A stretch of DNA of 64,000 nt, taken from NCBI RefSeq assembly GCF_000721075.1, contig NZ_JOEQ01000002.1, positions 124,001 to 188,000 of the forward strand, read 5' to 3'. Origin of the DNA: Streptosporangium amethystogenes (lineage in GTDB: Bacteria; Actinomycetota; Actinomycetes; Streptosporangiales; Streptosporangiaceae). The position numbers were made by a program, and so were the translations under genes. Shown piece after piece: positions 8,816-25,740 of the stretch (positions are counted from its first letter, which is position 1; each line of letters opens with the position of its first letter). The notes beneath the pieces are model-generated. The model searched no databases. It saw nothing but the letters and a program-made list of their open reading frames with translations, and was not told where the DNA came from.

Positions 8816-8821
8816 TTAGCC

Positions 8822-8938
8822 AAGTGCCCTGGTCCCCCGTCGGGGCACTGGTGCCGGCGTTCCGGGCCCCCGTCGGAACGCCGATGAAGCGACGCCGGGT
8901 GGTTTGCCCCCGTAACCACCCGGCGTCGCCCTTTTCTT
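8822..8938 (+). ncRNA. 6C-type small RNA with three C-loop hairpins
   Basis: Three consecutive hairpins each expose a CCCCCGT loop: stem 8824-8829/8843-8848, stem 8856-8863/8875-8882 (perfect 8 bp) and stem 8891-8904/8914-8927 (perfect 14 bp). The last is followed by CCCTTTTCTT, so it also acts as a Rho-independent terminator. The actinobacterial 6C RNA family is defined by stem-loops with cytosine-rich loops next to a terminator; it pairs with G-rich mRNA starts in mycobacteria. The family description usually has two such loops; here there are three. The gap between two convergent genes contains nothing else. Confidence 0.68.
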
Positions 8939-8972
8939 ATGACTTTTAGTTGTCCTCACCTTTTCCTTGACA

Positions 8973-9227
8973 TTATTTCTCACCCTGAGTATCGGTTGTC
9001 TGCTCCCAGTTACGCGCCAGCGCGGTCAGCCTTTCCACGGCATCCGGCGGCGCCGTGCCCGCCCCCAGCGCCACACCGAGCAGATAGGCCGTCAGCGGCG
9101 CGGCGGGCCGAGCCACTCCGTGCGCGACCTCCTTCGTCAGGTCGAGCACCTCGTCACGGTCGACCGTCGCGGGATCGATGCCCAACTCCCGGCAGACCAG
9201 CGCGGTCCACTCCGTCAGCACGTTCAA
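8973..9227 (-). CDS. DUF6457 family protein
   Basis: An 84-residue protein with the typical pattern LGIDPATVDRDEVLDLTKEVAHGVARPAAP (quoted in parts), a short all-helical domain often encoded next to mobA/moaA in actinobacteria. It overlaps mobA by 4 bp (ATGA), so it belongs to the molybdenum-cofactor operon. The function is unassigned; context suggests a role in cofactor synthesis or insertion. Confidence 0.8.
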   Translation of the reverse strand: MNVLTEWTALVCRELGIDPATVDRDEVLDLTKEVAHGVARPAAPLTAYLLGVALGAGTAPPDAVERLTALARNWEQTTDTQGEK

Positions 9228-9847
9228 CTCTCACTCCCTCTCAGCGGTGGTGCCACCTGGGCCTTCGAAGCCCGTGCCCGCTGTAGATCGTCCATCGTGT
9301 CGCAATCGAACCACGGCTGCCCGGCGAGACGAAGCGTGACCGGGTCGAGCGGGGCCAGCAGCCCGTGCAGCGACCGCCCCTCGTAGCGGGCGAGCGCCCG
9401 CACCAGGCTCGCCGTATGCCAGACCCCGGCGAGCCACTGCTCGCGGCCACCGTCGTCGACGAGCACCGCTCCCGCCCGCGCCCCCTCCGTGTACGCCATC
9501 GTCCCCGTTCCCGCGCCTGCCGCGTCCAGCAGCGCGGACACGTGCTCGGCGGTCAGGAACGGAAGGTCGGCGGCGAGCAGCGCCACCCACGGCGCGGTCA
9601 CCTCGGCCAGCCCCGCCCGCAGCGCCGGAACGGGGCCGCCTCCGGGTGGATCCTCACGGCGGAAGATCGCGTGTGGCAGCCCGGGGCGGGGCGGCCCGAC
9701 GACGACCAGCCTGCCGGCGCCGGGTACGGCAGCGGCCACCGACTCGACCAGCGGGCGGCCCGAGACGTGCAGGGCGGGCTTGTCCCGGCCGCCGAGCCGT
9801 CTCGCGAGACCGCCCGCCAGGACGCAGGCGTCGTGGCGGGCGATCAT
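9224..9847 (-). CDS. mobA: molybdenum cofactor guanylyltransferase (MobA-like)
   Basis: A 207-residue nucleotidyltransferase. The N-terminal signature VLAGGLARRLGGRDKPAL contains the GTP-binding loop and the conserved Lys; the metal-binding Asp is in LLAADLPFL. It attaches GMP to molybdopterin to give the bis-MGD-type cofactor. Other MobA-like NTP transferases are possible, but the overlap with moaA (4 bp) and DUF6457 (4 bp) supports the assignment. Confidence 0.85.
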   Translation of the reverse strand: MIARHDACVLAGGLARRLGGRDKPALHVSGRPLVESVAAAVPGAGRLVVVGPPRPGLPHAIFRREDPPGGGPVPALRAGLAEVTAPWVALLAADLPFLTAEHVSALLDAAGAGTGTMAYTEGARAGAVLVDDGGREQWLAGVWHTASLVRALARYEGRSLHGLLAPLDPVTLRLAGQPWFDCDTMDDLQRARASKAQVAPPLRGSES

Positions 9848-10833
9848 CCGCCGATGGCGGACATCGGGCGGGACGGCTGCAGGAAGGTCGGGTCATCGAT
9901 GCCGTGACCTGCCTTCTTGATCCGGACCGCGGACCGCCAACGCTCGACGATCTCGTCGTCGCTCGCCCCCGAGCGCATCGCGCTCCTCAGGTCGGACTCG
10001 TCGGTGGCGAACAGGCAGTTGCGGATCTGGCCGTCGGCGGTGAGCCGCACCCGGTCGCACGCACCGCAGAACGGGCGGGTGACCGAGCCGATGACGCCGA
10101 CCCTGGCCGGGCCCCCCTCGACGAGGAACAGTTCCGCAGGAGCGCTACCGCGTTCCACCGGATCGGCGTCGGTCAGGTCGAAGGCGGCCTGGAGCCGGGC
10201 GAGGATCTCGTCAGCTGTGATCATGTTCTCCCGGCGCCAGCCGTGCTGGGCGTCCAGCGGCATCTGCTCGATGAACCGCAGCTCGTACTCCCGTTCCAGG
10301 CAGTAGCGCAGCAACGGCACGGCCTCGTGGTCGTTGATCCCGCGCATCAGCACGGTGTTGACCTTGACGGGGCGCAGGCCGGAGGCGTGCGCCGCCTCCA
10401 GGCCCGCAAGAACGTCGGCCAGCCGGTCACGGTGGGCGAGTTTCTTGAAGGTCTCGCGGTCGAGGGTGTCGAGGGAGACGTTGACCCGGTGCAGGCCGGC
10501 GACGGCCAGGGAGCCGGCCATCCGGCTCAGCCCGATCCCGTTGGTGGTCAGCGAGACCTGCGGGGTGGGGACGAGCGCGGTGGTGCGGGTCACGATGTCG
10601 ACCAGTTCGCGGCGGAGCAGGGGCTCGCCCCCGGTGTAGCGGACCTCGGTGATGCCCAGCCGCTCCACCCCGATGGTGACCAACCGGACGATCTCGTCGG
10701 CGGTCAGCAGTTCGGGGTTGGGTAACCATTCCAGGCCCTCGGGCGGCATGCAGTAAGAACAGCGCAGGTTACAGCGGTCCGTGAGGGACACCCGCAGATC
10801 GGTCGCCACACGGCCGAATGAATCCTGCAACAC
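9844..10833 (-). CDS. moaA: GTP 3',8-cyclase MoaA
   Basis: A 329-residue radical SAM enzyme that performs the first step of molybdopterin synthesis. The SAM cluster motif CNLRCSYC lies near residues 22-29 and the second 4Fe-4S cluster is formed by CGACDRVRLTADGQIRNC. The C-terminus ends in Gly-Gly, as needed for catalysis in MoaA. It is the first gene of the moaA-mobA-DUF6457 operon; the genes overlap by 4 bp each. Confidence 0.97.
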   Translation of the reverse strand: MLQDSFGRVATDLRVSLTDRCNLRCSYCMPPEGLEWLPNPELLTADEIVRLVTIGVERLGITEVRYTGGEPLLRRELVDIVTRTTALVPTPQVSLTTNGIGLSRMAGSLAVAGLHRVNVSLDTLDRETFKKLAHRDRLADVLAGLEAAHASGLRPVKVNTVLMRGINDHEAVPLLRYCLEREYELRFIEQMPLDAQHGWRRENMITADEILARLQAAFDLTDADPVERGSAPAELFLVEGGPARVGVIGSVTRPFCGACDRVRLTADGQIRNCLFATDESDLRSAMRSGASDDEIVERWRSAVRIKKAGHGIDDPTFLQPSRPMSAIGG

Positions 10834-11050
10834 GGGGCGCCACCTCCCAGTCGGTCACCTATCGAGCAGGGGGCCAGCCTATGGCCAGCCCCCTACCCAG
10901 CCCCAAACGGGCCTCGACCACTCCAACATCACCACGAGATGGTTGATTCCTTGAGGTATTGCTTGGTCTGTCCGGACGATCCGGTCCCTGAGGTCCCCGC
11001 GTCCTCACGTCCCTCGAAAACGGCGCACGCCCTGGTCGCGGACCGATCGC

Positions 11051-12244
11051 TCAGCCCTTGATGCAGACCAGCTGCCGCAGGTGCGCGACCACCTCGACCA
11101 GGTCGGTCTGCGCGGCCATGACCGACTGGATGTCCTTGTACGCGCCGGGGATCTCGTCGATCACCCCGGTGTCCTTGCGGCACTCGACGCCGGCGGTCTG
11201 CGCCTTGAAGTCCGCCAGGGTGAAGGTCTTCTTCGCCTTGTTCCGGCTCATCCGGCGACCCGCGCCGTGCGAGGCCGAGTTGAACGCGGCGGGGTTCCCC
11301 AGGCCCTTCACGATGTAGGTGCCGGTCGCCATCGAGCCGGGAATGATGCCGAACTCACCGGATCCAGCGCGGATCGCACCCTTTCGGGTGACGAGCACGT
11401 CCACACCGTCGTAGCGCTCCTCCGCCACGTAGTTGTGGTGGCAGGAGATCGGCTGCTCGAAGGTGATGCCCGCCAGGTGGCGCCGGAGCACGTCGCAGAC
11501 CAGGGCCATCATGACCGTCCGGTTGCGCCGCGCGTAGTCCTGCGCCCAGAACAGATCGCGCCGGTAGGCGTCCATCTGCGGGGTGCCCCCGACGAACACC
11601 GCCAGGTTGCGGTCCGGCAGGTCCTGGTTGTGCGGCAGGTCCTGGGCCTGTCCGATGTGGTGCTCGGCCAGCTCCTTGCCGATGTTGCGCGACCCGGAGT
11701 GCAGCACCACCCAGACCACGCCCTCGTCGTCGGCGCAGACCTCCAGGAAGTGGTTCCCCCCACCCAGGGTGCCCATCTGCACCTCGGCCCGCTCCCTCCT
11801 CTGGTGTACCGCCGGGGCCAGCGTGTCGAAGTCCTTCCAGAAGCCCGCCCAGTCGGCGGCCTTGAACCCCTGCAGCCTGGTCGGGTCGACCGGCCGCTTG
11901 TGGTGCCCGAAGCCGACCGGCACCGCCTGCTCCAGCTTCGAACGCAGGTAGGCCAGATTGTCGGGAAGGCTCTCCACCCGGTAGGAGGTCCGCACCGCGG
12001 TCATCCCGCAGCCGATGTCGACCCCGACCGCCGCGGGCGAGACCGCGTCACGCATCGCGATAACCGACCCCACCGTCGCGCCCATCCCGTGATGCACGTC
12101 CGGCATCACCGCGACCCCCTGCACCCACGGCAGGTTCGCCACATTACGAAGCTGCTGCATCACGTTCGGCTCGACCTCGGCCGGGTCGGCCCACATGCGG
12201 ATCGGCGCACGCCCACCCATCACCTCGTTGTACGACATCTCCAC
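11051..12244 (-). CDS. rtcB: RNA-splicing ligase RtcB
   Basis: A 397-residue GTP/Mn-dependent RNA ligase that joins 2',3'-cyclic phosphate (or 3'-phosphate) ends to 5'-OH ends in RNA repair. Diagnostic blocks are GVDIGCGMTAVRT (metal-binding Cys), HSGSRNIGKELAEHH, ISCHHNYV, and the guanylylated-His region GSASHGAGRRMSR-like near the C-terminus. The start is GTG 12244 or ATG 12238; GGGAGGAGG lies upstream of both. The gene appears monocistronic, and no archease gene is adjacent. Confidence 0.96.
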   Translation of the reverse strand: MEMSYNEVMGGRAPIRMWADPAEVEPNVMQQLRNVANLPWVQGVAVMPDVHHGMGATVGSVIAMRDAVSPAAVGVDIGCGMTAVRTSYRVESLPDNLAYLRSKLEQAVPVGFGHHKRPVDPTRLQGFKAADWAGFWKDFDTLAPAVHQRRERAEVQMGTLGGGNHFLEVCADDEGVVWVVLHSGSRNIGKELAEHHIGQAQDLPHNQDLPDRNLAVFVGGTPQMDAYRRDLFWAQDYARRNRTVMMALVCDVLRRHLAGITFEQPISCHHNYVAEERYDGVDVLVTRKGAIRAGSGEFGIIPGSMATGTYIVKGLGNPAAFNSASHGAGRRMSRNKAKKTFTLADFKAQTAGVECRKDTGVIDEIPGAYKDIQSVMAAQTDLVEVVAHLRQLVCIKG

Positions 12245-12459: not shown

Positions 12460-13251
12460 TCAGGGGCCTCCCGGGGAACCCGGATTCAGAACCGCGTGTT
12501 CACCACCGTCGACGGGGCACTGGCCCGTGCCGGAGGCGCCGAAGGGTCGGCGGGTCAGGCTCCGGTGGACCATTTCGGTGAGGGTCACGATGTCGAAGAC
12601 CGGTATGCCGAGGTGTGCCTGGATCTGGTGGGCATAGGGCACCACGTCGGTGCATTCGATGACGAGCGCCCCCATGTCGGGGTTCTCCTTCGCCAGCTGT
12701 TCGACCTGGCCCAGCACTTCGCGGCCCAGGCGGTCGGCGTCGAGGTCCGGGCGCCGGGCTTCGAGCATGACCTCGCGGAACTCCGGCTGGTCCTCCAGGC
12801 CGACGACGCAGACCGGGACGTGCTCGGCGCCGACGGCCGCCAGGTGACGCCGGGTGAGGGAGGGCTTCTTGGCGACCAGCAGCCCGACCTTCTGATCCGA
12901 GCGGATCATGCGGTGCACCATGGGCAGTTGGATCAGGCTTGAGGCGTGCAGCGGGACGTTGACCGCGTCGGCCAGCTGCCTCTGGAAGATGACGAGAAAG
13001 CCGCAGGCACCGGTGATGGCGGCCGCGCCCCGCGCTTCGAGTTCCTGAGCGGCCTGGATGAACGGGTCGAGCAGGCGCGGGTCGGCCTGGGTCACCACGC
13101 GTTCGGCGGTCGCGCCGTCCACGACCCGGTAGATGACGGGGAAGTCGAAGGTGGCCCGGTTGCGGATGTGCCCCGGGACCTTGGTGAAGTTGGTGTCGCA
13201 GCACAGGACGCCGATCGCGACGTCGTGCTCCGTTTCCGCTCCGGTGGCCAT
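12460..13251 (-). CDS. Asp/Glu/hydantoin racemase-family protein
   Basis: A 263-residue protein with two-domain racemase architecture. One catalytic Cys is in ITGACGFLV (about residue 80-85) and the second in LVIECTDVVPYA (about residue 195-200); this paired-Cys layout is that of aspartate/glutamate and hydantoin racemases. The ATG at 13251 is chosen because GGGAGAGAACC precedes it; the frame is open further upstream, but that part is out of phase with family homology and high in Arg/Pro. It is last in the encapsulin operon. It could epimerise the substrate of the neighbouring FAD oxidase or a cluster intermediate; the substrate is inferred only. Confidence 0.85.
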   Translation of the reverse strand: MATGAETEHDVAIGVLCCDTNFTKVPGHIRNRATFDFPVIYRVVDGATAERVVTQADPRLLDPFIQAAQELEARGAAAITGACGFLVIFQRQLADAVNVPLHASSLIQLPMVHRMIRSDQKVGLLVAKKPSLTRRHLAAVGAEHVPVCVVGLEDQPEFREVMLEARRPDLDADRLGREVLGQVEQLAKENPDMGALVIECTDVVPYAHQIQAHLGIPVFDIVTLTEMVHRSLTRRPFGASGTGQCPVDGGEHAVLNPGSPGGP

Positions 13252-13364
13252 GGCGGTTCTCTCCCGTCGGGTGTTGCGGTCGTGTCGTCTGGCGGCGGGA
13301 TCCGGGCCGGTCACGGCGCGAGGTCCGGTGTCCCATCGCCGCAAGCGGGGGGGTGGGACGCCTC

Positions 13365-14693
13365 TCATCGCCCGGGACGCAGGCGGAGGCGGCGCGGGGG
13401 CCCGCCACCGTAGCGGCCGGGACTCAGCGGGGTGAGGTCCATCTCGGGTCGCTCTCCGGCGACGAGCTGTGCGATCAGCCTGCCGCTGACCGGTGCGAGC
13501 CCCATGCCGATGTGGCCGTGACCGCACGCGACGGAGAGGTTGCGGTAGGGGGCGGCACGCCCCAGGAAGGGGAGGCCGTCCGGGCTGCAGGGACGAAACC
13601 CACTCCAGGTTTCGAGAGTCTCGGTGCTCTCCATCTTCGGGAGGTACACCTGAACGGTTCGCAGGATGCCGTCCACCCGGCTGCGGGAGATCGCGGTGTC
13701 CATGCCTGACAGCTCCAGGGTTCCGCCGAAGCGGAGGCGGTCGCCGAGCGGTACGAGCGCGACCTTCCCCTCGCCCAGCAGGACCGGCAGCCGGGGCGCG
13801 TTGCCCGGTGCCTTGACCGTGACGGAGTAGCCCTTGGCGGGCTGGAGCCTGAGCCCGATGTCCAGCCCGCGAGCGCATTCCGCCGACCAGGTCCCGGCGG
13901 CGATGACCGTCTCGCGAGGGCTGAAGTCCCCGTGAACCGTCCTGACCCGCTTGACCTCGGCTCCCGCGACCTCGAAACCGACGACCCCGGTGTGCTCGTG
14001 GATCTCCACGCCCATGTCGCCGAGCGTCCGGGCGAGTCCGGTGACGAAGTCGGGGACACGCAGGTAGGCACCCTCCTCGTTGTACAGGGCGCCGTGGATG
14101 TCGAACTCGGCGTCCGGTTCGAGCGCGCGCAGCTCCCCCGGGCCGAGGACGCGCAGCGGCACGCCGCTCGCGACCGTTCCCGGCACCGCCCGGCAGGCCT
14201 TCTCGAATCCCTGCCGTGTCCGGTACGCGAGCAGCATCCCCTGGGCTGTGAAGGTGGAGGCCAGGCCATCCGACGCGCAGAGCTCACGGAGGATCCCGAG
14301 GCTCCGCTTCTTCATGTCGACCAGTACCTGGAAACCGGCCTTCGCGTCGCGCTCGTTGCAGGCACGGCGAAAGTGCCAGAGCCACGACAACAGCTCGGGG
14401 TCCGGGCGCGGTCTGATGTAGAAGGGACTTTCCGGGTTCAGCAGCCAGCGCAGTCCCTGGGCCATCACGCCGGGCTCGGCGAGGGGAAGCGCGCCCTGCG
14501 TGCCGACGAAGCCGGTGTTTCCATACGAACAGGACTGGAGGCCGCCGACCGGCCCCCGTTCCACGACGGTCACGCTGTTGCCTGCGCGGCGCAGGTAGTA
14601 GGCGCAGAACAGGCCGACGACGCCGCCGCCGATGACGAGGACGTCAGGGTCGTACCGGAGGGGGGCCGGGTTCGGGGAGGGCATCGTCGGCAT
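13365..14693 (-). CDS. FAD-dependent D-amino-acid dehydrogenase-like oxidoreductase (DadA type)
   Basis: A 442-residue DAO-superfamily flavoenzyme. The ADP-binding motif VLVIGGGVVGLFCAYYLRRAG lies at about residues 18-38, followed by VVERG. A second FAD contact appears in VIAAGTWS, and the C-terminal block SVACGHGHIGMGLAPVSG is typical of DadA/glycine-oxidase proteins. It probably oxidises an amino acid or secondary amine in the cytoplasm. It lies 37 bp downstream of the shell gene and 113 bp upstream of the racemase. Pairing of a racemase-like and a D-amino-acid-oxidase-like enzyme suggests an amino-acid-derived product. Confidence 0.88.
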   Translation of the reverse strand: MPTMPSPNPAPLRYDPDVLVIGGGVVGLFCAYYLRRAGNSVTVVERGPVGGLQSCSYGNTGFVGTQGALPLAEPGVMAQGLRWLLNPESPFYIRPRPDPELLSWLWHFRRACNERDAKAGFQVLVDMKKRSLGILRELCASDGLASTFTAQGMLLAYRTRQGFEKACRAVPGTVASGVPLRVLGPGELRALEPDAEFDIHGALYNEEGAYLRVPDFVTGLARTLGDMGVEIHEHTGVVGFEVAGAEVKRVRTVHGDFSPRETVIAAGTWSAECARGLDIGLRLQPAKGYSVTVKAPGNAPRLPVLLGEGKVALVPLGDRLRFGGTLELSGMDTAISRSRVDGILRTVQVYLPKMESTETLETWSGFRPCSPDGLPFLGRAAPYRNLSVACGHGHIGMGLAPVSGRLIAQLVAGERPEMDLTPLSPGRYGGGPPRRLRLRPGR

Positions 14694-14730
14694 CTGCTGT
14701 CCTTTACGGCGACACGATCACGGGGCGCGA

Positions 14731-15606
14731 CTACAGGGTCACGATGAAGAAGTTGGTCAGCAGGTTGATCACGACCCGCTCGTAGATCTCGGCCATCAGC
14801 GCGATGCCGGGCTCGGCGAAGGTTCCCGGGGGCGGCTCGGCGAAGCGGATCACCGAGCGTCCCGCGTCGAACAGTTGGGCGCCGTGCCCGAAGTCGCCGA
14901 CGATGGCGGTTCCCGGATCGACCAGGCGCGTCCGCACGATGAAGACGCCGTTCTGCTCCAGATCGTCCATCAGGCGGCCCTGCCCCATGAACCTGTAGTA
15001 GTCGACGGGATTGATGATGAGGCCGTCGGCGGTGCCTCCCATCTGCTCCGCCTCGTTGCACGCCGCGAGGATCGTCGAGCCGAACGGTCCCTTCGAGGTC
15101 ATGCGGATGACCCCCGGGATGTTCAGCAACCCGCCCCTGCCTCGGATGATCGTGTGGTTCTCGGCCGTGCCGAGACGGACGATCAGCCGGTAGTTGATGA
15201 ACGACTCGAAGGTCTCGGGGTCCTCCCACAGGTCCGGCGGAACCTGCACCCACGCGGTGGTGGGATAGAGCTCGGGGATCGGCGACCGGTGGAAGCGGTT
15301 GGCCGCCTCGCGTCTCAGGTCGGCCTCGGTGACCTGAGGGTCGCCGGGAAGGGGCGGGCTCTCGTGCCAGTAGAACCGCCGGGGGTCCCTGGAGAGGTCG
15401 ACGACCTTGAGCATGTTGCGCGCCGGGTAGCGCGGTTTGCGCCGCGAACTCGTCAGCGAGTCGGTGATCGTCACGTCGTACTCCACCGAGGCTTCGAGTC
15501 CCTTGGCGGCACAGGCCTCGACGAACAGCCGGCCCGGCGACATCTGCTTCTTCCGCTCGGCGACGACTTCCGCCATCGTCGACTTCATGCCTTCTGTGCG
15601 CTGCAT
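14731..15606 (-). CDS. HK97-fold encapsulin-like shell protein (Family 3 type)
   Basis: A 291-residue protein whose second half reads as an HK97 capsid: GRGGLLNIPGV at 156-166, LIINPVDYYRF at 196-206, and the A-domain strand/turn GTAIVGDFGHGAQLF at 232-246 followed by RSVIRF. A hydrophobic helix/strand pair to the C-terminus (IYERVVINLLTNFFIVTL) forms the typical closing element. The N-terminal 30 residues are basic and helical. The ATG is preceded by GCGAGGAAG. It sits in the middle of an eight-gene biosynthetic operon, with no portal, terminase, protease or tail gene nearby. Known encapsulins of the biosynthetic Family 3 class occur in such clusters. Alternative: a domesticated phage capsid gene of other use. 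The fold is fairly sure; the compartment role is inferred. Confidence 0.78.
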   Translation of the reverse strand: MQRTEGMKSTMAEVVAERKKQMSPGRLFVEACAAKGLEASVEYDVTITDSLTSSRRKPRYPARNMLKVVDLSRDPRRFYWHESPPLPGDPQVTEADLRREAANRFHRSPIPELYPTTAWVQVPPDLWEDPETFESFINYRLIVRLGTAENHTIIRGRGGLLNIPGVIRMTSKGPFGSTILAACNEAEQMGGTADGLIINPVDYYRFMGQGRLMDDLEQNGVFIVRTRLVDPGTAIVGDFGHGAQLFDAGRSVIRFAEPPPGTFAEPGIALMAEIYERVVINLLTNFFIVTL

Positions 15607-15633
15607 GGCTTCCTCGCTACTGGTGGTTCGGCG

Positions 15634-16488
15634 CTAGGGCGTGGCGTTGCCGGGCTTGCGGGTGACGAACATCCCCCAGCCGAACTCGCCGTCGTCGATG
15701 GCGATCTGGATCTCCGCGCAGGACTCGGAGAAGGCCAGCATCCAGTCGCGCGCCGAGGCGTCCGGCGTCGCCTCTGCGCGCTCGCGGGCGATCCTGCCCA
15801 GCACGCGGTAGGTCTGCCGGATGTGGCTCTCCAGGTTGCGGGCGAGGAGGATCTCGAATCCGGCCTCTTCCAGAGCGGCCTGGTAGCCGACGAAGGAGTA
15901 GCCGCCGTTCCATCTCACCCGGTCGTAGACGTGCCTGCGGGCGCGCTCGCCGATCTCCTTCTTGGGCTGGAGGAAGTCGGAGAAGGCGAAGACGCCTCCG
16001 GGCCGCAGGACGCGGTGGATTTCGAGGTGACTGCGCGGCTTATCCGGTACGAGGCAGAGCGCGTCCTGGCTGACGACGTGACTGAAGGTGCCGGTCTCGT
16101 ACGGCATCCGGGTGACCGAGCCCTGGCGGAACTCGATGTCGAGCCCGTTCTCGGCGGTCAGGGCCTCTCGCGCGAACCTGACGCGCTCGGCGCTCAGGTC
16201 GAGTCCCCCGCAGCGGCAGCCGAACCGCCTGGCGAGGTGGATCGGGAAGTTGCCGCAGCCGCAGCCGACGTCGAGCACGAACGACGAACCGTCGATTCCG
16301 GCGTCCGCCGCCAGGATGTCGGACGTCCGCTCGGCGGCGGCACGGTAGTCGTCGTCGGCGTCGTCCGCGAAGTAGCCGGTGTGCAGGACTCCGTCACCGT
16401 CCCAGAAGCTCAGGTAGGTCTGAAGGGTCTGGTCGAAGAAGTCACTGACGTCCCTCTCGGTGTAGGCCTGGCCGGTCGTTGACATCAC
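15634..16488 (-). CDS. class I SAM-dependent methyltransferase
   Basis: A 284-residue methyltransferase. SAM motif I is VLDVGCGCGNFPIHLARRFG (about residues 71-90), the acidic ribose contact is GLDLSAER, and the post-motif block VLRPGGVFAFSDF is clear. The N-terminal YTERDVSDFFD...TYLSFW resembles sarcosine/dimethylglycine and tocopherol-type methyltransferases, so an N- or C-methylation of a small substrate is plausible. It lies between the SDR (34 bp) and the shell gene (27 bp) and is presumably a tailoring enzyme of the cluster. Confidence 0.88.
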   Translation of the reverse strand: MMSTTGQAYTERDVSDFFDQTLQTYLSFWDGDGVLHTGYFADDADDDYRAAAERTSDILAADAGIDGSSFVLDVGCGCGNFPIHLARRFGCRCGGLDLSAERVRFAREALTAENGLDIEFRQGSVTRMPYETGTFSHVVSQDALCLVPDKPRSHLEIHRVLRPGGVFAFSDFLQPKKEIGERARRHVYDRVRWNGGYSFVGYQAALEEAGFEILLARNLESHIRQTYRVLGRIARERAEATPDASARDWMLAFSESCAEIQIAIDDGEFGWGMFVTRKPGNATP

Positions 16489-16522
16489 GGGGTCCTTCCT
16501 TCGGTGGAGATGACCTGGGTCG

Positions 16523-17350
16523 TCATGTGTAGGTGTCCTGGCGCGCGGACGTGAGGTGCGCCGGCTCCGGCCCCACCACGCTGGCGCCGCCGTCGATCAG
16601 GTGGAGCGCGCCGGTGACGAACGAGGCCCGCTCTCCGGCGAGGAAGGCCGCGACGGCGGCGAACTCGGCCGGGTCCCCGACGCGGCCCAGGGCGTTGTGC
16701 CGGCCCATGGCACGCAGCCGGGCTTCGACGTCGCCGTCCTCGGCCAGCTTCGCCGCCGCCCGCTCCACCGGTGGGGTACGGGTCGTACCGGGTGCCAGCA
16801 CGTTGACGGTGATGCCGTCGCGGCCGACTTCGGAGGCGAGGGACTGGGCGAAGCGCACGATGGCGGCGCGGGTCACCCCGGAGAGCGCCAGCTGGGCTAT
16901 GGGGACGCTCGCCGTCTCCGAGGCCACGAAGAGCAACCGGCCCCACTGGGCGGCCTTCAGGTGCGGCAGCGCCGCGAGGGCCAGGGTCAGCGCCGGGGAG
17001 AGCACCTTGTCGATGGCCGCCTGGTAATCGGCCTGCTCGAACTGCGAGGCGGTGCCGATCGGCGGGCTGCCGCCGCCGACGAGCACGATGTGCAGGACGC
17101 CGAAGTCGGCGGCGACCTCGTCGACCCAGCGACGCGCCGCCTCCCCGTCCGTGATGTCGACGCTCGTGGCGTGGATCCGGCCACGTGCCACCTCCTTGAG
17201 GCCGCGTTCGGCCTCCGCGAGCCGGTCGCGGTCGCGTGCGCCGATCGCGACATGCGCGCCCTCCCTGGCCAGCTCCATGGCGGTGGCGAGGCCGAGGCCG
17301 CTGGATCCGCCAGCGACGAGCGCGACCTTGTTCTCAAGCCCCAGTTCCAA
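16523..17350 (-). CDS. atypical short-chain dehydrogenase/reductase-like protein
   Basis: A 275-residue SDR. The Rossmann motif GGSSGLGLATA lies at about residues 14-24 and the C-terminal FVTGALHLIDGGASV is canonical. At the position of Y-x3-K, however, it reads PIAQLALSGVTRAAIV, with no Tyr or Lys; this matches the BKR-like SDR subgroup that lacks the catalytic tetrad. The nucleotide loop after beta-strand 4 (LVGGGSPP) replaces NNAG. The C-terminus has a hydrophilic 20-residue tail after the conserved end. It follows the sulfotransferase by 42 bp. It may be a non-classical reductase, a binding protein or an enzyme with a different acid/base. Confidence 0.85.
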   Translation of the reverse strand: MELGLENKVALVAGGSSGLGLATAMELAREGAHVAIGARDRDRLAEAERGLKEVARGRIHATSVDITDGEAARRWVDEVAADFGVLHIVLVGGGSPPIGTASQFEQADYQAAIDKVLSPALTLALAALPHLKAAQWGRLLFVASETASVPIAQLALSGVTRAAIVRFAQSLASEVGRDGITVNVLAPGTTRTPPVERAAAKLAEDGDVEARLRAMGRHNALGRVGDPAEFAAVAAFLAGERASFVTGALHLIDGGASVVGPEPAHLTSARQDTYT

Positions 17351-17392
17351 ACGTCCTCCTCCTTGCCGTGCGGGCTGTTCGGCATCCGGCCC

Positions 17393-18403
17393 CTAGCGCT
17401 CCCCGGTCGCCCGCGGCGGCGCGGTGCCGGCCCGTCGTGAACCGGTGGGAGGCGTGCCGCCGTAGCGGTAGCCATAGCGCCGGAACAGCGGCCATGACAG
17501 CGTCGCCGCGGCCAGCCTGGCGGGCAGCGGCAGATCGGTCCGCCAGGAGTCGTCCCGGTCCCGGATGATGGTGGTGCCGGTGTGGAAACGATCGGGATTG
17601 CCGGTGACCGTGTGGTTGGTACGGAGCTCGATCGTCCGGCCCCGCATCGGATTGGCGACCGGGTCCTCGCCGCAGAGCCGCAGCAGCGCGTCGACCGTTC
17701 CCACCGGATCGGCGATGAACTCCTCGTAGCGCAGGAACATCGATCGGTCCCGATGGCGGCGGACGATCGCCTGCGAGGCCACGTTGAAACCGTGCCAGTA
17801 GGCGGTGCTCTTCCTGGACGACATGACGTAGCAGTACTGCTTCTCCCGGCTCCACGACTGGGCGACCGCCCTGGGGTCGCGTACGAGATGGACGTAGTAC
17901 GGCGTCACCCCGTCGAGGTGCGGCAGCAGGGCCGCCTCGCCGGGGATCTTGGTGGTGTCCACGAGGACGCGGGCGCCGGTCAGCTCGCCGACGGCGTGGT
18001 AGGTCCGCGTCATCAGGGCGGCGTGCTCGCGGATCTCCTCGGAGTGCAGCCCGCGGTCGAGCACCCGCCAGGTGTGCCTCGTCCGCACACAGGCCAGCTG
18101 GCGGCGGATGACGGTGTCCGCGTGGGCCTGCGCGGAGACCCCGGCCGGCCGCCCGAGCGGGAGGATCCTCGACCAGATGTGGCATTCGGTCAGCGGCCTG
18201 CCGCAGCCGCACGAGCTGTTCGCTCCCCTGCCCGCCGCGTTCTTCCACAGGAAGTGCAGTTCCCCGACGTGGAAGACCTCTGGGACCTCGTTGAGGATGT
18301 TGCCGATGATGGTGCTGCCGTTGCGGCACCATCCGGTGATGCAGAGGATCTTGAGAGATGTCTTCGAGAGGTTCGATCCGTTGATGACGTGCTCCTGACT
18401 CAA
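17393..18403 (-). CDS. sulfotransferase
   Basis: A 336-residue PAPS-dependent sulfotransferase. The 5'-phosphosulfate loop is CITGWCRNGSTIIGNIL near residues 19-35 and the 3'-phosphate loop VHLVRDPRAVAQSW lies further on. A Cys-rich CGCGRPLTECHIW segment follows the first loop, as in bacterial sulfotransferases of this branch. No ATG or GTG precedes the homology; TTG at 18403 overlaps the MFS stop (TTGA). An AGGAG 6 bp before an ATC codon at about 18386 is a second possible initiation site. It is presumably a tailoring enzyme that sulfates a cluster product, which would then be exported by the neighbouring MFS pump. Confidence 0.87.
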   Translation of the reverse strand: MSQEHVINGSNLSKTSLKILCITGWCRNGSTIIGNILNEVPEVFHVGELHFLWKNAAGRGANSSCGCGRPLTECHIWSRILPLGRPAGVSAQAHADTVIRRQLACVRTRHTWRVLDRGLHSEEIREHAALMTRTYHAVGELTGARVLVDTTKIPGEAALLPHLDGVTPYYVHLVRDPRAVAQSWSREKQYCYVMSSRKSTAYWHGFNVASQAIVRRHRDRSMFLRYEEFIADPVGTVDALLRLCGEDPVANPMRGRTIELRTNHTVTGNPDRFHTGTTIIRDRDDSWRTDLPLPARLAAATLSWPLFRRYGYRYGGTPPTGSRRAGTAPPRATGER

Positions 18404-19581
18404 CTCACGGCCGCCGGCTGCGCGTCCTGCCCGCGGACACAGAGCGCCACGGCCACGGCCAACATCGCGCAGACGGCGCCGGCGACGAACACCGCGGGGT
18501 AGCCGAAACCGGCGGCGACCACTCCGATCAGCGGCCCCCAGACGGCCAGGCCCAGATCCCAGAAGGAGGTGTAGGCGCCGATCGCGGCCCCCTGCCTCGA
18601 CGGGTCGGTGCGGTTCATCACCATCAGGGCGAGCGACGGGTGCAGCAGCGAGAACCCGGCTCCCATGACCAGGCTGCCGAACACGGCGACAGGCAGGTTC
18701 GGCGCCAGGGCGATGATCGCGAGGCCGCCGGCCTCGCCGATGCCGGACCAGGTGGCGACCCTGCGTGGCCCGAGCCGGTCCGGTAGGTGGCCGATGAACA
18801 ATCTGGTGCCGGCGTAGACGGCGCTGAAGCCGCTGAGCACCACGACGCCCGACTGGACGCCGCGGGCCTGGAGGTGCAGGACGACGAAGGCGGCGAGGCC
18901 CGCGTACCCCGCGGCGGCGAGCCCGAGGGCCAGCCCCGGCAGCAGTACCGGGCGTGGCAGCAGGGTGTGCCCACCGCTCTGCCGCACCTCGCCCGGCTGC
19001 CCCGCGCGTGCGGGGGCGGGAACCGCGCTGATCAGCAGGAGGGCGACCAGCGCGGTGGCGGCGCTGAAGCCCCACACCGCGCCGTAACCGAAGTTCAGCA
19101 GCAGCGCGCCCAGGAAGGTCCCCACCGAGATCCCGCCCCACATGCTGACGCCGTAGAGCCCGATCAGCTGCCCGCGGCGGTTGTGCGGCGCGAGCGAGAC
19201 GACCCAGACGGCACCCGCGGTGAAGAGCGACGCCTCGCCGACGCCGGCCAGCAGGCGGACGGCGACCAGGCCGCTCAGGCCGAGCGGCAGGAAGTAGAGC
19301 AGGCCGCCGACGGCGATGACCAGCGCGCCTGCCTGCATGACGAGGCGATGGCCGTACCGGTCGGCCAGGTGGCCGGAGACGGGCCTCACCAGCAGGGCCG
19401 TGAGCGCCGTCGCCATGACCACCAGCCCGACGGCGAAATCGCCGGCGCCGAAGCTCTCCCTGACGAAGCCCGGCAGCACCGGGATCGCCGCGGTGAGGCC
19501 CAGGTAACCGCAGAAGAGTCCTCCAAAGACCCCGGCGAGGGCGAGGCGTGGCATCGTGCTCTTCTCCGTGGGGGCTTCCAT
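18400..19581 (-). CDS. MFS transporter (DHA1-like exporter)
   Basis: A 393-residue protein with 12 predicted membrane helices. MFS motif A is present as GHLADRYGHRLV in the 2-3 loop and again as GHLPDRLGPRRV in the second half. The cytoplasmic middle loop (residues about 180-205) is short. The ATG starts 2 bp after the aminotransferase stop and the 3' end overlaps the sulfotransferase start by 4 bp, so it is firmly within the operon. Likely role: export of, or self-protection against, the cluster product. Confidence 0.9.
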   Translation of the reverse strand: MEAPTEKSTMPRLALAGVFGGLFCGYLGLTAAIPVLPGFVRESFGAGDFAVGLVVMATALTALLVRPVSGHLADRYGHRLVMQAGALVIAVGGLLYFLPLGLSGLVAVRLLAGVGEASLFTAGAVWVVSLAPHNRRGQLIGLYGVSMWGGISVGTFLGALLLNFGYGAVWGFSAATALVALLLISAVPAPARAGQPGEVRQSGGHTLLPRPVLLPGLALGLAAAGYAGLAAFVVLHLQARGVQSGVVVLSGFSAVYAGTRLFIGHLPDRLGPRRVATWSGIGEAGGLAIIALAPNLPVAVFGSLVMGAGFSLLHPSLALMVMNRTDPSRQGAAIGAYTSFWDLGLAVWGPLIGVVAAGFGYPAVFVAGAVCAMLAVAVALCVRGQDAQPAAVS

Positions 19582-19583
19582 CG

Positions 19584-20993
19584 CTACTGCCCGACGGGCG
19601 CGGTGTCGGCCAGCCCGGTGACCGGATCCGCCGGCAGGGCGGAGCCCTGGTCGACGGAGGCGTACCCGTCTACCAGAGGGGTTCGCCGGCCGCGGTCCGG
19701 CGCGACGGCCGCCGCCACCTTGCGGACCGCCCTGATCAGGTGATCGCAGTCCTGCGCCGAGAGGTTGGAGGACAGCGGGATGTCCACCGCCTGCTCCAGG
19801 TATCGCGTGGTGTTCGGCAGCAACGCCTTGATCTCCTCGACGCCCCTGGCGCCGAACATGAACCGCCAGTTCCAGAAGACCCGCACGTTGGTGTCCTCGT
19901 CGGAGCCGAGGTTTCGCGCGTCGACGCCCTCGCAGCAGAGCGCGCGGGCGAACCATTTCGCGTCCACGCCGGGAACCCGGAAGATGAACGCCTCGCCCAG
20001 ATAGGCGCCGGGGTCCACGGGCTGGCGGATCGCGATCTGGGGGAGGTCGGAAAGGGCCGCGGTCACGTAGGCGTAGTTGCCGCGGAAGCGTTCCAGGCGC
20101 ATCGGCAGCCGGGTCATCTCGGCGCGCAGCAGGGCCGCGCGGATCTCGTCCATGCGGAAGCTGAACAACGGCAGGTCGAGATCGGTGGCGATCGGTGTCT
20201 CGCCGTCCGGGAAGTGCCGCCGGAAGCGTCCCTCGTACGCGCCCGAGAGCACGACGGCGCGGGCGAAGAGCACGCTGTCGTCGGTGGCCAGGAAACCGCC
20301 CTCGCCGCAGTTGAGCGACTTGTCGGACTGGGTGCTGAAGGCGCCCGCGAGGCCGAAGGTGCCGAGTTTTCTGCCTTTCAGTTCCGCGCCGAGGGCCGGG
20401 ACCGCGTCCTCGAACACCGGCACGCCCATGTCGGCGGCGAAGCGCGTCACCGCCTCCATGTCGGCGGCGAAGCCACGCATGTGGACCACCAGGATTCCCT
20501 TGATCTCGGGTGTCCAGCGGCGACGGAGATCGTCGACATCCATGTGGAGGTTCTCGTCCACCTCCACCAGGATGGGTGTGCATCCGGCGAGCACGATGGC
20601 GCTGGGGGTGGCCACGAAGGTGAAGCCGGGACAGGCGATCAGCGAGCCCGGCGGGATCCCCGCCGCCATGATGGCGAGCGCGAGCGCGGTGGTGCCGCTG
20701 GACACGGCCAGCGCGTGCTTGCTGCCGAAATAGTGGCACAGTTCCTCCTCGAACTTGCCGCACTCGGTGTCCTGCTGGGATCGGTAGTCGTAGCGGAAGT
20801 AGAGATGGCTGCGGATGGCGCGTAACGCCGCTTCCTCGTCCTCGGAATGGACGAAGACGGCCCCCTTGTCGTAGGTCGGCCAGGGCGTGTGCCGGACGGG
20901 GTCACCACCGTTCACGGCGAGCCGCGTGTCCTCGGTCTGTCCGGTCTCCGGCAACGGCCGGACCGGCACCGGACCCTCCTTGTTTCTGTTCAC
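19584..20993 (-). CDS. DegT/DnrJ/EryC1/StrS-family PLP aminotransferase with C-terminal tail
   Basis: A 469-residue fold-type I aminotransferase. The PLP-binding Lys is in STQSDKSLNCGEGG; other family blocks are LAVSSGTTALALAI, PGFTFVATPSAI and EDAVPALGAELKGRK. It has a 35-residue Pro/Gly-rich N-terminal extension and a 37-residue disordered tail after RAVRKVAAAVAP. The GTG start has AAGGAG 7 bp upstream. It is the first gene of the encapsulin operon. Enzymes of this family transaminate keto-sugars or other cyclic ketones. The unusual tail is a candidate for recruiting the enzyme into the shell. Confidence 0.92.
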   Translation of the reverse strand: MNRNKEGPVPVRPLPETGQTEDTRLAVNGGDPVRHTPWPTYDKGAVFVHSEDEEAALRAIRSHLYFRYDYRSQQDTECGKFEEELCHYFGSKHALAVSSGTTALALAIMAAGIPPGSLIACPGFTFVATPSAIVLAGCTPILVEVDENLHMDVDDLRRRWTPEIKGILVVHMRGFAADMEAVTRFAADMGVPVFEDAVPALGAELKGRKLGTFGLAGAFSTQSDKSLNCGEGGFLATDDSVLFARAVVLSGAYEGRFRRHFPDGETPIATDLDLPLFSFRMDEIRAALLRAEMTRLPMRLERFRGNYAYVTAALSDLPQIAIRQPVDPGAYLGEAFIFRVPGVDAKWFARALCCEGVDARNLGSDEDTNVRVFWNWRFMFGARGVEEIKALLPNTTRYLEQAVDIPLSSNLSAQDCDHLIRAVRKVAAAVAPDRGRRTPLVDGYASVDQGSALPADPVTGLADTAPVGQ

Positions 20994-21599: not shown

Positions 21600-22169
21600 T
21601 CAGAGACGGAAGTCCCAGTCGATCAGGCTCGCGCGTAGGTCGTCGGCGAGGCCCCGGACATAGTCGAGTTCGGCCTTGAGCACGGCCCGCTGGTACTCGG
21701 TCTCCACCAGGAAGAGGCGGGGAAGGAACTTCGCCCCCTCGGTCAGGTCGCGGTCCAACTCCGACAGTCGCGCCTCCAGGGAGATCAGGCGCTCGTCGAG
21801 CGCCGCCCGGACCTCATCGGGCGGCAGCACGGGCATGAAGGCGAGTGCGGCGGGGAACTCCGGGAACTCGCGGGCCCGCACGGAGAGCATCGTCCGCATC
21901 CACTGCCGCAGCGTGTCCCGGCCCGCGTCGGTGGGCTCGTAGACGGTCCGCTCGGGCCGGTTCTCCTCGCGCGAGGTCTCGCGGACCGCGATGAGCCCGT
22001 CGCGGAGCAGCCTGTCGATGGTCTGGTAGACGCTGTTGCGCTGCGCGACGTTGACGACGTCGTCCTTGTGCCGCTCCTTGATCATCCGCTGCATCTGGTA
22101 CGCGTGCATCGGCGCCTCACAGACCAGCGAGAGCAGCGCCATGGCCAGGGGGGATCGCCTCGTAGACAT
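21600..22169 (-). CDS. PadR-family transcriptional regulator
   Basis: About 189 residues. A winged-helix domain occupies the first 95 residues: LAMALLSLVCEAPMHAYQM, QRNSVYQTIDRLLRDGLI, and the wing ERTVYEPTDAGRDTL are the standard PadR pattern. A C-terminal helical dimerisation domain (Vir_act_alpha_C type) follows. The ATG at 22169 is preferred: TACGAT, a -10-like element, lies 7 bp before it and overlaps the alternative ATG at 22178, which suggests a leaderless mRNA. It is divergent from the FAD monooxygenase and likely represses it, and possibly itself, through the repeats at 22199-22230. Confidence 0.9.
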   Translation of the reverse strand: MSTRRSPLAMALLSLVCEAPMHAYQMQRMIKERHKDDVVNVAQRNSVYQTIDRLLRDGLIAVRETSREENRPERTVYEPTDAGRDTLRQWMRTMLSVRAREFPEFPAALAFMPVLPPDEVRAALDERLISLEARLSELDRDLTEGAKFLPRLFLVETEYQRAVLKAELDYVRGLADDLRASLIDWDFRL

Positions 22170-22198
22170 GGTGCACATCGTAACGGCCTATCCAGCAA

Positions 22199-22230
22199 TA
22201 GTTATTTTATGTATAGTCATTTTATGACTA
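22199..22230. promoter_or_regulatory. PadR operator overlapping a leaderless promoter
   Basis: A direct repeat (TAGTTATTTTATG at 22199, TAGTCATTTTATG at 22214, 15-bp period) overlaps a perfect inverted repeat TAGTCAT-TTT-ATGACTA (22214-22230). The repeats cover the -10 candidate TATAGT (22212-22217) and the ATG at 22224 of the monooxygenase. PadR dimers bind such AT-rich inverted repeats, so ligand-relieved repression of the divergent pair is likely. Confidence 0.6.
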
Positions 22231-23405
22231 AAAAAGCCCTGATAGTCGGCGGAGGCATCGCCGGCCCGGTGACGGCGATGGCCCTGCGACGCGCCGGCAT
22301 CGACAGCGAGGTCTTCGAGGCGTACGACCGAGGTTCCGATGGCGTGGGCGCCTTCCTCACCCTCGCGGTCAACGGCCTGGAGGCCCTGCGCCCCCTCGAC
22401 CTGCACGATCTCGTCGGCGAGCTGGGCATGGACTCCTCGCGGATGCTGATGCTCAACGGGCGCGGCAGGCCGCTCGCCTCCACCTGGCAGCCCAGCCGGA
22501 CGCTGAGGCGCGCCGATCTCTATCGGGTGCTGCGCGACGAGGCCGTACGGCGCGGCGTGCGGATCCACTACGGCAGGCGCCTCACCGACGCCTCGATCAC
22601 CGAGACCGGGGTGCGCGCGGTCTTCGCCGACGGCGGCGCGGCGGAAGGCGATCTGCTGATCGGCGCCGACGGGCTCCACTCGCGCACTCGCGCGATCATC
22701 GACGCCGGAGCACCTCGCGCCCGGCACGTCGGCCTGCTGAACACCGGCGGTTTCGCACGCGGCGTCGAGGTGCCCGGCGAGCCGGGAACGAGCTACTTCA
22801 TCTTCGGCAAAAGATGCTTTTTCGGCTACCTGATCCATCCGGACGGCGAGGTGTGGTGGTTCGCCAACCCGCCGAGCCCCGGGGAGCCGACACCGGAGGA
22901 ACTCTCGGCGATCACCCCGGCGCGGTGGCGCACCAGGCTCACAGAACTGTTCGGCGACGACACCGGACCGATGCTCGACATCATCGGCGCGACCGACCAC
23001 ATCATGCCCGGCTGGAACACCTACGACGTCCCGACCGTGCCGAAGTGGTTCAACGAGCGCATGGTGATCGTGGGTGACGCCGCGCACGCGACCTCGCCCT
23101 CCTCCGGCCAGGGGGCGTCCATGGCGATCGAGGACGCCGTGGTGCTGGCCAAATGCCTGCGAGACGTCCCCGGCACCCGCGACGCGTTCGCCGCCTTCGA
23201 GGCAGCACGGCGGAAGCGGGTGGAGCGGATCGTGGAGCAGGGCAGACGTAACGGGAGCGGCAAGGCGCAGGGAGCCGTCGGCGCCCTCTTCCGCGATCTC
23301 GCACTACCGGTGATCATGCGGCAGGTGAACAGGAGGAACGCGCTGGCCTGGATGTACGACTACCGGATCTCCTGGAACGAGCCGGCATCCGCGGCGTCCG
23401 GCTGA
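22224..23405 (+). CDS. FAD-dependent aromatic-type monooxygenase (UbiH/PHBH family)
   Basis: A 393-residue class A flavoprotein monooxygenase. The FAD motif is [21 protein letters not shown] at the N-terminus (residues 5-25); the DG motif region is [15 protein letters not shown] and the GD motif is [16 protein letters not shown]. The ATG at 22224 sits 6 bp after TATAGT with no ribosome site, so the mRNA is probably leaderless; a longer frame is open upstream but overlaps PadR. PadR-controlled flavin monooxygenases often inactivate antibiotics or modify phenolics. It may serve detoxification or act on products of the adjacent clusters. Confidence 0.9.
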
Positions 23406-23436
23406 CCGGCAGGCGACCGGCAGGCGACCGGCAGGG

Positions 23437-24306
23437 TCAGGGCGCTGTGATGGCGGTGCCGCGGGCGAGGAGCAGGACGACGGCGACCGCGGCGACGGCG
23501 ACCGCCACGGCGAAGGGAACGCGCGGCGAGTCTCGGCCCAGCGCCACCCCGCAGGCGGTGAAGGCTCCGGCCACCGCCAGCGCCGCCCAACCTCCCGCGC
23601 CCGGCGACCCCGTGGGGCCGAAGACGAGCAGGGCGGTCGCGGCCAGCAGCGGCAGCGGGATCAGGACGCGGACGCGGGCGACGCCGAGCCGCTGCGGCCA
23701 GCCCCGGACCCCACCGGCGAGGTCCGCGGGGATGTCGGGGAGCACGTTGGCCAGGTGCGCTCCGCAGCCGAGCAGCGCCGCGGCCAGGACCGCCCACCAG
23801 GCGGGCCACGGATGTCCCGGCAGGCCCAGGGTCACGAACCCGGGAAGCGCGCCGAAGCCCACCAGGTACGGCAGCCAGGAGAGCGCGGTCGCCTTCAGGC
23901 CGAGGTCGTAGGCCCAGGCCGCGGCGACGCCGACGAGGTGGACCGCACCTGCCGCCGACCCCGAGGCCAGGGAGAGCGGCACGCAGAACGTCAGGGCCGC
24001 GATCGCGGCGACCCACACCGTGCGGACGTTCACCGCGCCACCGGCGACGGGCTTGCCGGTACGACCCGCGGCGGCGTCCCGCGCCGCGTCCACCGCGTCG
24101 TTGCACCAGCCGATCGAGAGCTGCCCGGTCAGCACCGCCGTCGCCACCAGGACGCACCCGGCCGCGTCACGCCCGCTCAGCGCGGCCAGCGCGGTCACCA
24201 GGACGGTGACCGCCACACTCGGCCCGGGGTGGCAGGCCAGCAGCAGCCCCCGCACGACCCTGAGCGCCGGCCCTGTCCCCGGGCACATCGGCCGGCTCGT
24301 CGTCAC
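23437..24306 (-). CDS. UbiA-family prenyltransferase
   Basis: A 289-residue integral membrane protein with eight or nine helices. The first Asp-rich motif is [19 protein letters not shown] (NDxxDxxxD-like) and the second is [18 protein letters not shown] (DxxxD), both needed to bind prenyl diphosphate through magnesium. It transfers a prenyl chain onto an aromatic or quinone-like acceptor. The start GTG 24306 or ATG 24288 is uncertain; neither has a strong ribosome site. It is divergent from the type III PKS, which may supply the acceptor. Confidence 0.88.
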
Positions 24307-24501
24307 GGATCGATCGTAGGCCGAGGGGTCCGGGCAAGCGGGTACCGAACATCTCAAAAAAGCGGACATCACTCTAAGAAACCGACAAAGTTGCGAGGTG
24401 AGATGCTCCGAGAAACGGACACCGAGGCTGTTGCGACGCATGCCACAGATCCAGCTGGGCAAAAGGCAGGTGTCCGCTGTTCGCAAGCCGGGGGTCTGTT
24501 T

Positions 24502-25740
24502 ATGACGCGAATCGTCGCTGTCCGCGGCGCGCTCCCGCCGAACCGGCACTCCCAGGCAGAGATCACCGAGGCGTTCGCACGGGTGTGCCTGCCCGAGGGT
24601 GCCAACCGCCGGTTGCTCGACCGGCTGCACACCTCCGCGCGGGTGGAGTCACGGCACCTGACGCTACCGCTTGAGCAGTACGCCAAAGTGGACGGCTTCG
24701 GGGCGGCCAACGACATCTTCGTGGAGATGGCCGTGGAACTGGGCACCGAGGCGCTGGGCGGCGCGCTGGAGGAGGCCGGAGCCCTCCCCGAGGACGTGGA
24801 CATGATCCTCTTCACCTCGGTGACCGGCGTCGCGGCCCCCTCGGTGGACTCCAGGGTGGCCGGGCGGCTCGGGCTGCGCCCGGACGTCAAGCGGATCCCC
24901 ATCTTCGGACTGGGCTGCGTCGCGGGGGCGGCCGGCATCGCCCGGCTCCACGACTACCTGCACGGCTGGCCCGAGCAGCTGGCGGTGCTGCTCTCGGTCG
25001 AGCTGTGCTCCCTCACCCTGCAGCGCGGTGACGCCTCCGTCGCCAACATGGTGGCGAGCGCCCTGTTCGGCGACGGGGCGACGGCCGTGGTGGCCTGCGG
25101 TGACGAGTGGCGACCCCGGCGTACCGGCTCGCCCGCGACCTCCAGGGCCGGCGCGGCGAGTGGCGCCTCCGCGACGACGCGGCCCGCGGGCCCCGCGGGG
25201 TCCTCTCCGGCGGCGGGCGCTCCCGCGACCGCCTGGCCCGCGGGCCCCGCGGGCTCCTCGCCCTCCGGCGGCGAGCCGGCCTCCCACCGGTCATCCGGAC
25301 GGGCGGCTCCGGCGGTGGTGGCCTCGCGCAGCCATCTGTATCCCGGCTCCGAGCACGTGATGGGCTGGCACGTCGGCGACACCGGCTTCCGCGTGGTGCT
25401 CGACGCGAGTGTTCCCGATGTGGTGCGCACCTACCTGGCCGACGACGTGCACGACTTCCTCGCCGACCACGATCTGGGCAGCGAGGACGTGACGGCGTGG
25501 GTCTGCCATCCGGGCGGCCCCAAGGTCCTGGAGGCGGTGGCCGAGACGCTGCGGCTTCCCGAGGACGCGCTGGACCTCACCTGGCGCTCGCTCGCCGCGA
25601 TCGGAAACCTCTCCTCCTCCTCGGTCCTGCACGTCCTGCGGGACACGCTCGCCCTGCGGCCACCGCCGCCCGGCACCCCGGGGATGCTCCTGGCGATGGG
25701 GCCGGGATTCTGCTCCGAACTCGTACTGCTGCGCTGGTAG
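24502..25740 (+). CDS. type III polyketide synthase with low-complexity insertion
   Basis: A 412-residue chalcone/stilbene synthase-type enzyme. The catalytic triad is visible: Cys139 in [12 protein letters not shown], His336 in [11 protein letters not shown] and Asn369 in AIGNLSSSS. It condenses malonyl-CoA onto an acyl starter to form a pyrone, resorcinol or quinone precursor. The core lengths match the family except for about 70 extra residues (roughly 200-271), Ala/Pro/Gly/Ser-rich, containing two copies of an 18-residue repeat. ATG 24502 has GGGGG upstream and matches the family N-terminus; an in-frame ATG at 24403 with GAGG would add 33 residues. The methyltransferase gene follows after 7 bp. 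Confidence 0.93.

Follow-up and report, generated by a model that had tools for sequence, protein, structure and literature searches.

A Family 3 encapsulin operon of Streptosporangium amethystogenes with an atypical short-chain dehydrogenase/reductase as candidate cargo

What does a phage capsid-like protein do inside a metabolic operon? The question is raised by a locus of the soil actinobacterium Streptosporangium amethystogenes within a 64,000-nucleotide stretch of contig NZ_JOEQ01000002.1 (positions 124,001 to 188,000; hereafter the window, to which all coordinates refer). Translation and a listing of open reading frames (ORFs) place eight same-strand genes across 12460-20993 on the minus strand, reading from 20993 down to 12460: a DegT aminotransferase, a major facilitator superfamily (MFS) protein, a sulfotransferase, a short-chain dehydrogenase/reductase (SDR), a methyltransferase, the capsid-like shell protein, a DadA-like oxidase and a racemase-like protein. 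A first-pass annotation of the window had described the same layout, with the shell gene between the methyltransferase and the DadA-like oxidase, and the names it gave to the genes agree with Pfam and NCBIfam. Neighbouring genes overlap or lie close together, the widest gap being the 113 bp at 13252-13364 between the racemase-like and oxidase genes. Judged by its sequence, the locus is a Family 3 encapsulin operon, of a kind already on record; what we add here is a three-gene core of shell, sulfotransferase and SDR, an SDR without the catalytic Tyr and Lys, and a conserved tail on that SDR. The features that carry the argument are as follows.

14731..15606, minus strand: Family 3 encapsulin shell protein, 291 aa, predicted HK97 fold
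16523..17350, minus strand: atypical SDR, core partner, 275 aa, TTG start at 17350; PF13561/PF00106, adh_short(_C2); Ser157/Arg161 replace Tyr/Lys
16868..16882, minus strand: SxxxR where SDRs have YxxxK, invariant in aligned and listed homologues
16526..16579, minus strand: SDR C-terminal tail, residues 258-275, candidate cargo-loading peptide by its conservation and low predicted local distance difference test (pLDDT) score
17393..18403, minus strand: sulfotransferase (Sulfotransfer_3), core partner; PF13469 at 44.6 bits, cut-off 27; TTG start, overlapping the MFS stop codon

Identity and distribution of the shell protein

The shell protein passes the NCBIfam model NF041188.2 (encap_f3) with 325.3 bits against a cut-off of 180. 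Its capsid-like fold, proposed in the first-pass annotation, is borne out both by an AlphaFold2 model, which is predicted to adopt the HK97 fold (from an alignment of 50 sequences, made up of the window protein, 41 homologues out of the 120 listed and 8 proteins from the loci), and by a sequence profile that matches the HK97 capsid among PDB chains with an E-value of 7.5e-17. Pfam gave no match for the window shell at E 0.001; precomputed PF05065 (Phage_capsid) annotations are present on some close relatives, e.g., P0006 and P0007, and passages of PMC8346489 state that only some Family 3 members carry this annotation. Family 1 and Family 2 encapsulins gave no sequence match to the shell among PDB chains at E-values up to 10, and among the PDB matches listed, none is named as a solved Family 3 shell. 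Among the best 120 of 541 shell homologues, NCBI names several as family 3 encapsulin; the nearest named homologues among the matches listed come from Streptosporangium. With a sulfotransferase and an SDR alongside, the suggestion that this is the Family 3 class inside a biosynthetic operon is upheld.

Shells above the encap_f3 cut-off occur in 14 genomes of 100 relatives and in 9 of 394 class-level genomes, four of which also belong to the set of relatives. Passing matches score at least 295 bits, and those below the cut-off score 58 bits at most. Within the genus, an SDR match (E <= 1e-40) is found in 8 of 16 genomes, exactly those with a shell over the cut-off.

The shell could in principle be a stray phage capsid, or a remnant of a prophage or gene transfer agent, that happens to lie beside a metabolic operon. 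The HK97 profile match fits this, as do Microbacterium phage capsids that match the shell at 24.9% identity and the name phage capsid formerly borne by many close relatives among the matches listed. We nevertheless regard such an origin as extremely improbable and reject it, since the shell keeps its place in the operon across the loci compared (see below), a clear gap in score separates Family 3 proteins from everything below the cut-off, and there is no portal gene near Family 3 genes in 19 genomes. In addition, the shell is the most conserved operon protein within its type (16-20 loci). The first-pass annotation had named portal, terminase and tail genes beside orthologues as what would speak for a phage. 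In the portal part of that check, PF04860 gave 12 matches in 9 of the 19 genomes (none in G000), none of them near a Family 3 gene, with some contigs being short. The terminase part is uninformative, as TerL (PF03354) has no match in the 19 genomes even though nine of them hold portals, and tail genes were not searched by model. In plasmid records, the only matches to the shell were five Klebsiella phage capsids at approximately 23% identity.

Conservation of the operon and its three-gene core

We compared 29 window-type loci (counting the window itself) and a further seven Family 3 loci that are more distant; duplicates were removed before counting (L020 = L042, L038 = L041, L017 = L030 and L007 = window). 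Where a source is named, the window-type loci belong to Streptosporangium, Nonomuraea, Planomonospora, Micromonospora, Nocardia or metagenome-assembled genomes (one labelled Chloroflexi); proteins across the type are 57-99% identical to those of the window. The full eight-gene set is present in 19 of the 29, with order and strand kept in 18, so that the arrangement is not due to chance. Counted gene by gene, the shell is found in all 29 window-type loci, the sulfotransferase, SDR and racemase-like protein in 28 each, the aminotransferase and oxidase in 27 each, the MFS protein in 25 and the methyltransferase in 24. The combination of a racemase with an amino-acid oxidase, which the first-pass annotation had thought unusual, is therefore the norm for this cluster type.

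Some departures from the full set have a simple cause: the L036 contig stops inside the MFS gene, and the L030 contig extends only 0.8 kb before the shell, accounting for the genes absent there, although not for its absent oxidase. The aminotransferase is inverted and downstream in L024 (60% identical) and likewise in L050 (57%). Five Nocardia-type loci have no methyltransferase, L050 has neither oxidase nor racemase-like gene, and L021, L035 and L050 do not have this MFS gene. In draft assemblies, the methyltransferase of L034 and the oxidase of L027 are split between frames, which may reflect assembly errors or real breaks.

Across both cluster types, the sulfotransferase and the SDR both lie beside the shell in 34 of 36 Family 3 loci, and on these per-gene counts we define the core as shell, sulfotransferase and SDR. 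Clustering of neighbouring genes yielded no further family common to most loci; some wrong-frame ORFs were picked in this analysis, so that genes could have been missed. Pairwise distances of the three core proteins correlate at 0.93-0.96 over 33 loci (none of 2000 permutations reached these values) and at 0.83-0.86 within the window type, as would be expected for genes that move together and without being proof of contact. One distant locus departs from the core: in L073 (genome G362), whose shell is approximately 39% identical to that of the window, neither a sulfotransferase nor an SDR is present in the 9.6 kb before the shell, and the contig ends 0.8 kb after it. The L073 shell adjoins an AMP-ligase and a 1062-residue AMP-binding/carrier/reductase protein, and the locus, which the contig end truncates, may represent another cluster type.

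The six other distant loci (L039, L040, L044, L051, L069 and L070) form what we call the amino-group carrier protein (AmCP) type. They share with the window a shell, a sulfotransferase and an SxxxR SDR, although their shells are only 27-33% identical to that of the window and their SDRs are tailless. Amino-acid kinase/M20 and semialdehyde-dehydrogenase families are common to five of the six (not L039), and some loci hold transketolase genes or parts of them. Pfam detects a LysW-like carrier in L070 only; similar short ORFs were seen by eye in L040 and L044. Both cluster types occur in one genome (G034) that belongs to the same family as the window, on different contigs (L001 and L017).

Andreas and Giessen reported in 2021 that Family 3 shells occur with sulfotransferases and SDRs, and in the passages of PMC8346489 that treat these "natural product" encapsulins they resemble the window in the NF041188 shell, the biosynthetic operon, the sulfotransferase and SDR, and the actinobacterial host. 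The same passages present peptide-product machinery (nonribosomal peptide synthetase (NRPS), polyketide synthase (PKS), AmCP) as common in Family 3 clusters, without stating that it is universal; the window differs in that no NRPS, PKS or amino-group carrier is matched among its eight genes. The survey, with six Family 3 operon types and cargo given as unknown, is repeated in part of PMC8229669. Encapsulins are also placed in Family 1 type linocin clusters in passages of PMC8776678 and in geosmin clusters in passages of PMC12766979. The known cargo types of Family 1 and Family 2 encapsulins are not among the window's eight genes. In the open-access literature, among the matches listed, we found neither an experimental study of a Family 3 product, cargo or structure nor an earlier mention of the three-gene core, the SxxxR SDR or its tail.

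The atypical SDR as candidate cargo

Alignment of the SDR with sorbose reductase (3ai3) puts Ser157 at the catalytic Tyr and Arg161 at the catalytic Lys, with Ser144 retained. The classical YxxxK motif is not present; the Ser/Arg swap is shared by all 33 aligned locus SDRs of both cluster types, and SxxxR is found in 120 of 120 listed homologues, the window's own SDR among them. (Listed homologues are the best 120 of 1211 for the SDR and the best 120 of 865 for the sulfotransferase, locus proteins included.) L034 is absent from the first SDR and sulfotransferase alignments owing to its split methyltransferase, but is counted among the 28 loci with an SDR, and its SDR is likewise SxxxR. PDB entry 2z1n, named only "dehydrogenase", aligns with SxxxR too. 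An SDR-like subgroup without the catalytic tetrad is recognised in the CDD. The Ser and Arg of the window-type and AmCP-type SDRs speak against a reduction of the classical kind.

The active site bears on the scheme of Andreas and Giessen, put forward in passages of PMC8346489 for Family 3 clusters with SDR/sulfotransferase pairs, in which the SDR makes a hydroxyl and the sulfotransferase then sulfates it; the sulfate would be retained in the product and the shell would confine an aldehyde or ketone. Beyond its publication for just such clusters, the scheme draws support from the adjoining SDR and sulfotransferase genes and from an adenylylsulfate (APS) kinase, detected by Pfam, in the AmCP-type locus L070. 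The replacement of Tyr and Lys throughout the locus proteins and homologues weakens the idea of an SDR-made hydroxyl, and we consider the scheme unlikely for this operon.

The second unusual feature of the SDR is its C-terminus. Window-type SDRs extend 18 residues beyond the end of the six AmCP-type SDRs, with a consensus of VxGPELPHLTAARKDTYT and a conservation of 0.76 among the 120 listed homologues (73-100% identical); at alignment positions 272-274, Asp and Thr are each found in 113 of 120 and Tyr/Phe in 117 of 120, and the end motif [DN]T[YFN][TA] is present in 21 of 28 loci. No other operon enzyme examined ends in a tail of similar conservation, and the tails of the aminotransferase, sulfotransferase and oxidase were rejected as targeting peptides for their low conservation. 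The SDR tail is thus our best candidate for a cargo-loading peptide, as far as conservation can suggest one.

As a whole, we favour, with moderate confidence, a Family 3 shell that serves a short pathway derived from an amino acid or amino-polyol. The HK97-fold shell, captured from a phage-like ancestor, very probably assembles, most likely into a small icosahedral shell. Its cargo would be the SDR held by the C-terminal tail, an assignment we make tentatively and at slightly under even odds. It is about as likely as not that the shell isolates a reactive intermediate, be it a sulfate ester, a carbonyl or an imine, from the cytoplasm; that intermediate would arise near the SDR and sulfotransferase step, the aminotransferase, methyltransferase, oxidase and racemase-like enzymes would act before or after it, outside the shell, and the MFS protein would export the product.

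Several observations weigh against this reading. The tail is missing in the six AmCP-type SDRs, so not every Family 3 shell can be loaded by this route. Within the window type as well, the five Nocardia-type loci are without the tail motif, and L024 and L035 deviate from it. The low pLDDT predicted for the tail (below 50 at residues 255-269 and 273-275) rests on a 14-sequence alignment. Several unrelated SDRs in the PDB run 10-25 residues past the aligned domain, so that having a tail is in itself nothing unusual, and the one seen here might serve as a contact between subunits. Nonsynonymous changes per codon are about twice as frequent in the tail (0.22) as in the SDR core (0.12); the tail value is the lowest of four tails compared. 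Between cluster types, mean identity is lower for the shell (0.28) than for the sulfotransferase (0.44) or SDR (0.47). Finally, shell assembly, cargo and product are all predictions.

The cargo may instead be the sulfotransferase, or both enzymes. The sulfotransferase is common to both cluster types (34 of 36 loci; absent from L030, where the contig ends, and not seen in L073), its gene directly follows that of the shell in L039, L044, L069 and L070, and in L070 the protein ends in a long, repetitive tail. However, the tail of window-type sulfotransferases is poorly conserved (0.42, versus 0.82 for the core, among listed homologues), and we hold this option to be rather doubtful. Still less likely is a shell that assembles without dedicated cargo, as a surface scaffold for enzymes or a product store. 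Such a role would fit passages of the 2021 texts (PMC8346489, PMC8229669) in which Family 3 cargo is given as unknown, and an SDR tail that is not universal; it sits poorly with an SDR tail and a shell N-arm that are both strongly conserved (the N-arm at 0.77 over residues 8-23, among the best 120 of 541 homologues). In Family 1 encapsulins the N-arm lies on the lumen side. A shell-enzyme fusion, which would be direct evidence of cargo, was sought and rejected in three longer shell homologues (P0114, P0105 and P0038), in a length-limited search that would hide most fusions; the 126-residue upstream extension of P0114 resembles an out-of-frame methyltransferase translation.

Accessory enzymes and possible chemistry

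The remaining genes of the operon are listed below.

19584..20993, minus strand: DegT/DnrJ-type pyridoxal phosphate (PLP) aminotransferase; PF01041 (DegT_DnrJ_EryC1), E 3.5e-60; 5k8b Kdo8N transaminase, E 1.5e-41; Lys225
18400..19581, minus strand: MFS transporter, probable exporter; PF07690 (MFS_1), E 9.1e-45
15634..16485, minus strand: S-adenosylmethionine (SAM) methyltransferase; PF08241, E 4.2e-21; Methyltransf_11/25
13365..14693, minus strand: DadA/glycine-oxidase-like FAD amino-acid oxidase/dehydrogenase; DAO, PF01266, E 1e-66; glycine oxidase 4ysh, E 5.6e-35
12460..13251, minus strand: Asp/Glu/hydantoin racemase-like protein; PF01177 (Asp_Glu_race); PRK07475, 281 bits; Cys83 and Cys200 conserved

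Lys225 of the aminotransferase, the PLP lysine by motif, is invariant in 26 of 26 aligned loci, and Cys83 and Cys200 of the racemase-like protein in 27 of 27. The nearest solved relatives of the aminotransferase and oxidase are the Kdo8N transaminase and glycine oxidase, respectively; PDB relatives of the methyltransferase include a D-glucose O-methyltransferase and, lower in the list, the mitomycin methyltransferase MitM, and the racemase-like protein has no solved relative at E 0.01. Pfam and NCBIfam gave no match to an NRPS, PKS, ligase or amino-group carrier among the eight genes, and the product is therefore probably a small amino compound.

Next to the operon, at 21600-27336, what looks like a separate prenylated-aromatic cluster encodes a PadR regulator, two FAD monooxygenases, a UbiA prenyltransferase and a type III polyketide synthase. 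Downstream, at 5069-12244, lies what seems an ordinary housekeeping region, with a TldD/TldE-like pair of metallopeptidases, genes resembling MobA and MoaA, and an RtcB ligase.

The first-pass annotation had expected a sulfated metabolite. This does not follow from the genes, because sulfate may act as a leaving group and because the classical Tyr and Lys are missing from the SDR. In azinomycin biosynthesis, according to passages of PMC9570651, a sulfated amino-alcohol (DADH), possibly made on an AmCP, undergoes ring closure to an aziridine in which the sulfate is displaced. AmCP-type Family 3 clusters resemble the kit of the azinomycin and vazabitide pathways covered there (AmCP, transketolase, sulfation and aziridine formation), which makes sulfate as a leaving group a serious alternative to decoration, by analogy; the window's eight genes differ from that kit in having no AmCP and no transketolase.

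Taken further, the analogy would make Family 3 shells sulfate-activation chambers: the core would sulfate an amino-alcohol, a non-reductase SDR, held in the shell by its tail in the window type, would expel the sulfate to form an aziridine-like N-heterocycle, and the shell would shield the cell from this strained or reactive electrophile. We put this forward as a long shot. If true, both cluster types would be variations on one chemistry, akin to the sulfate displacement of azinomycin.

Published pathway drafts for Family 3 clusters would need revision if the SDR is no reductase. Passages of the 2021 texts (PMC8346489, PMC8229669) left open the contents of Family 3 encapsulins and the reason for their place in biosynthetic clusters. 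With a megasynthase-free operon of eight genes, a three-gene core, an 18-residue candidate peptide and an atypical SDR, this question becomes directly testable.

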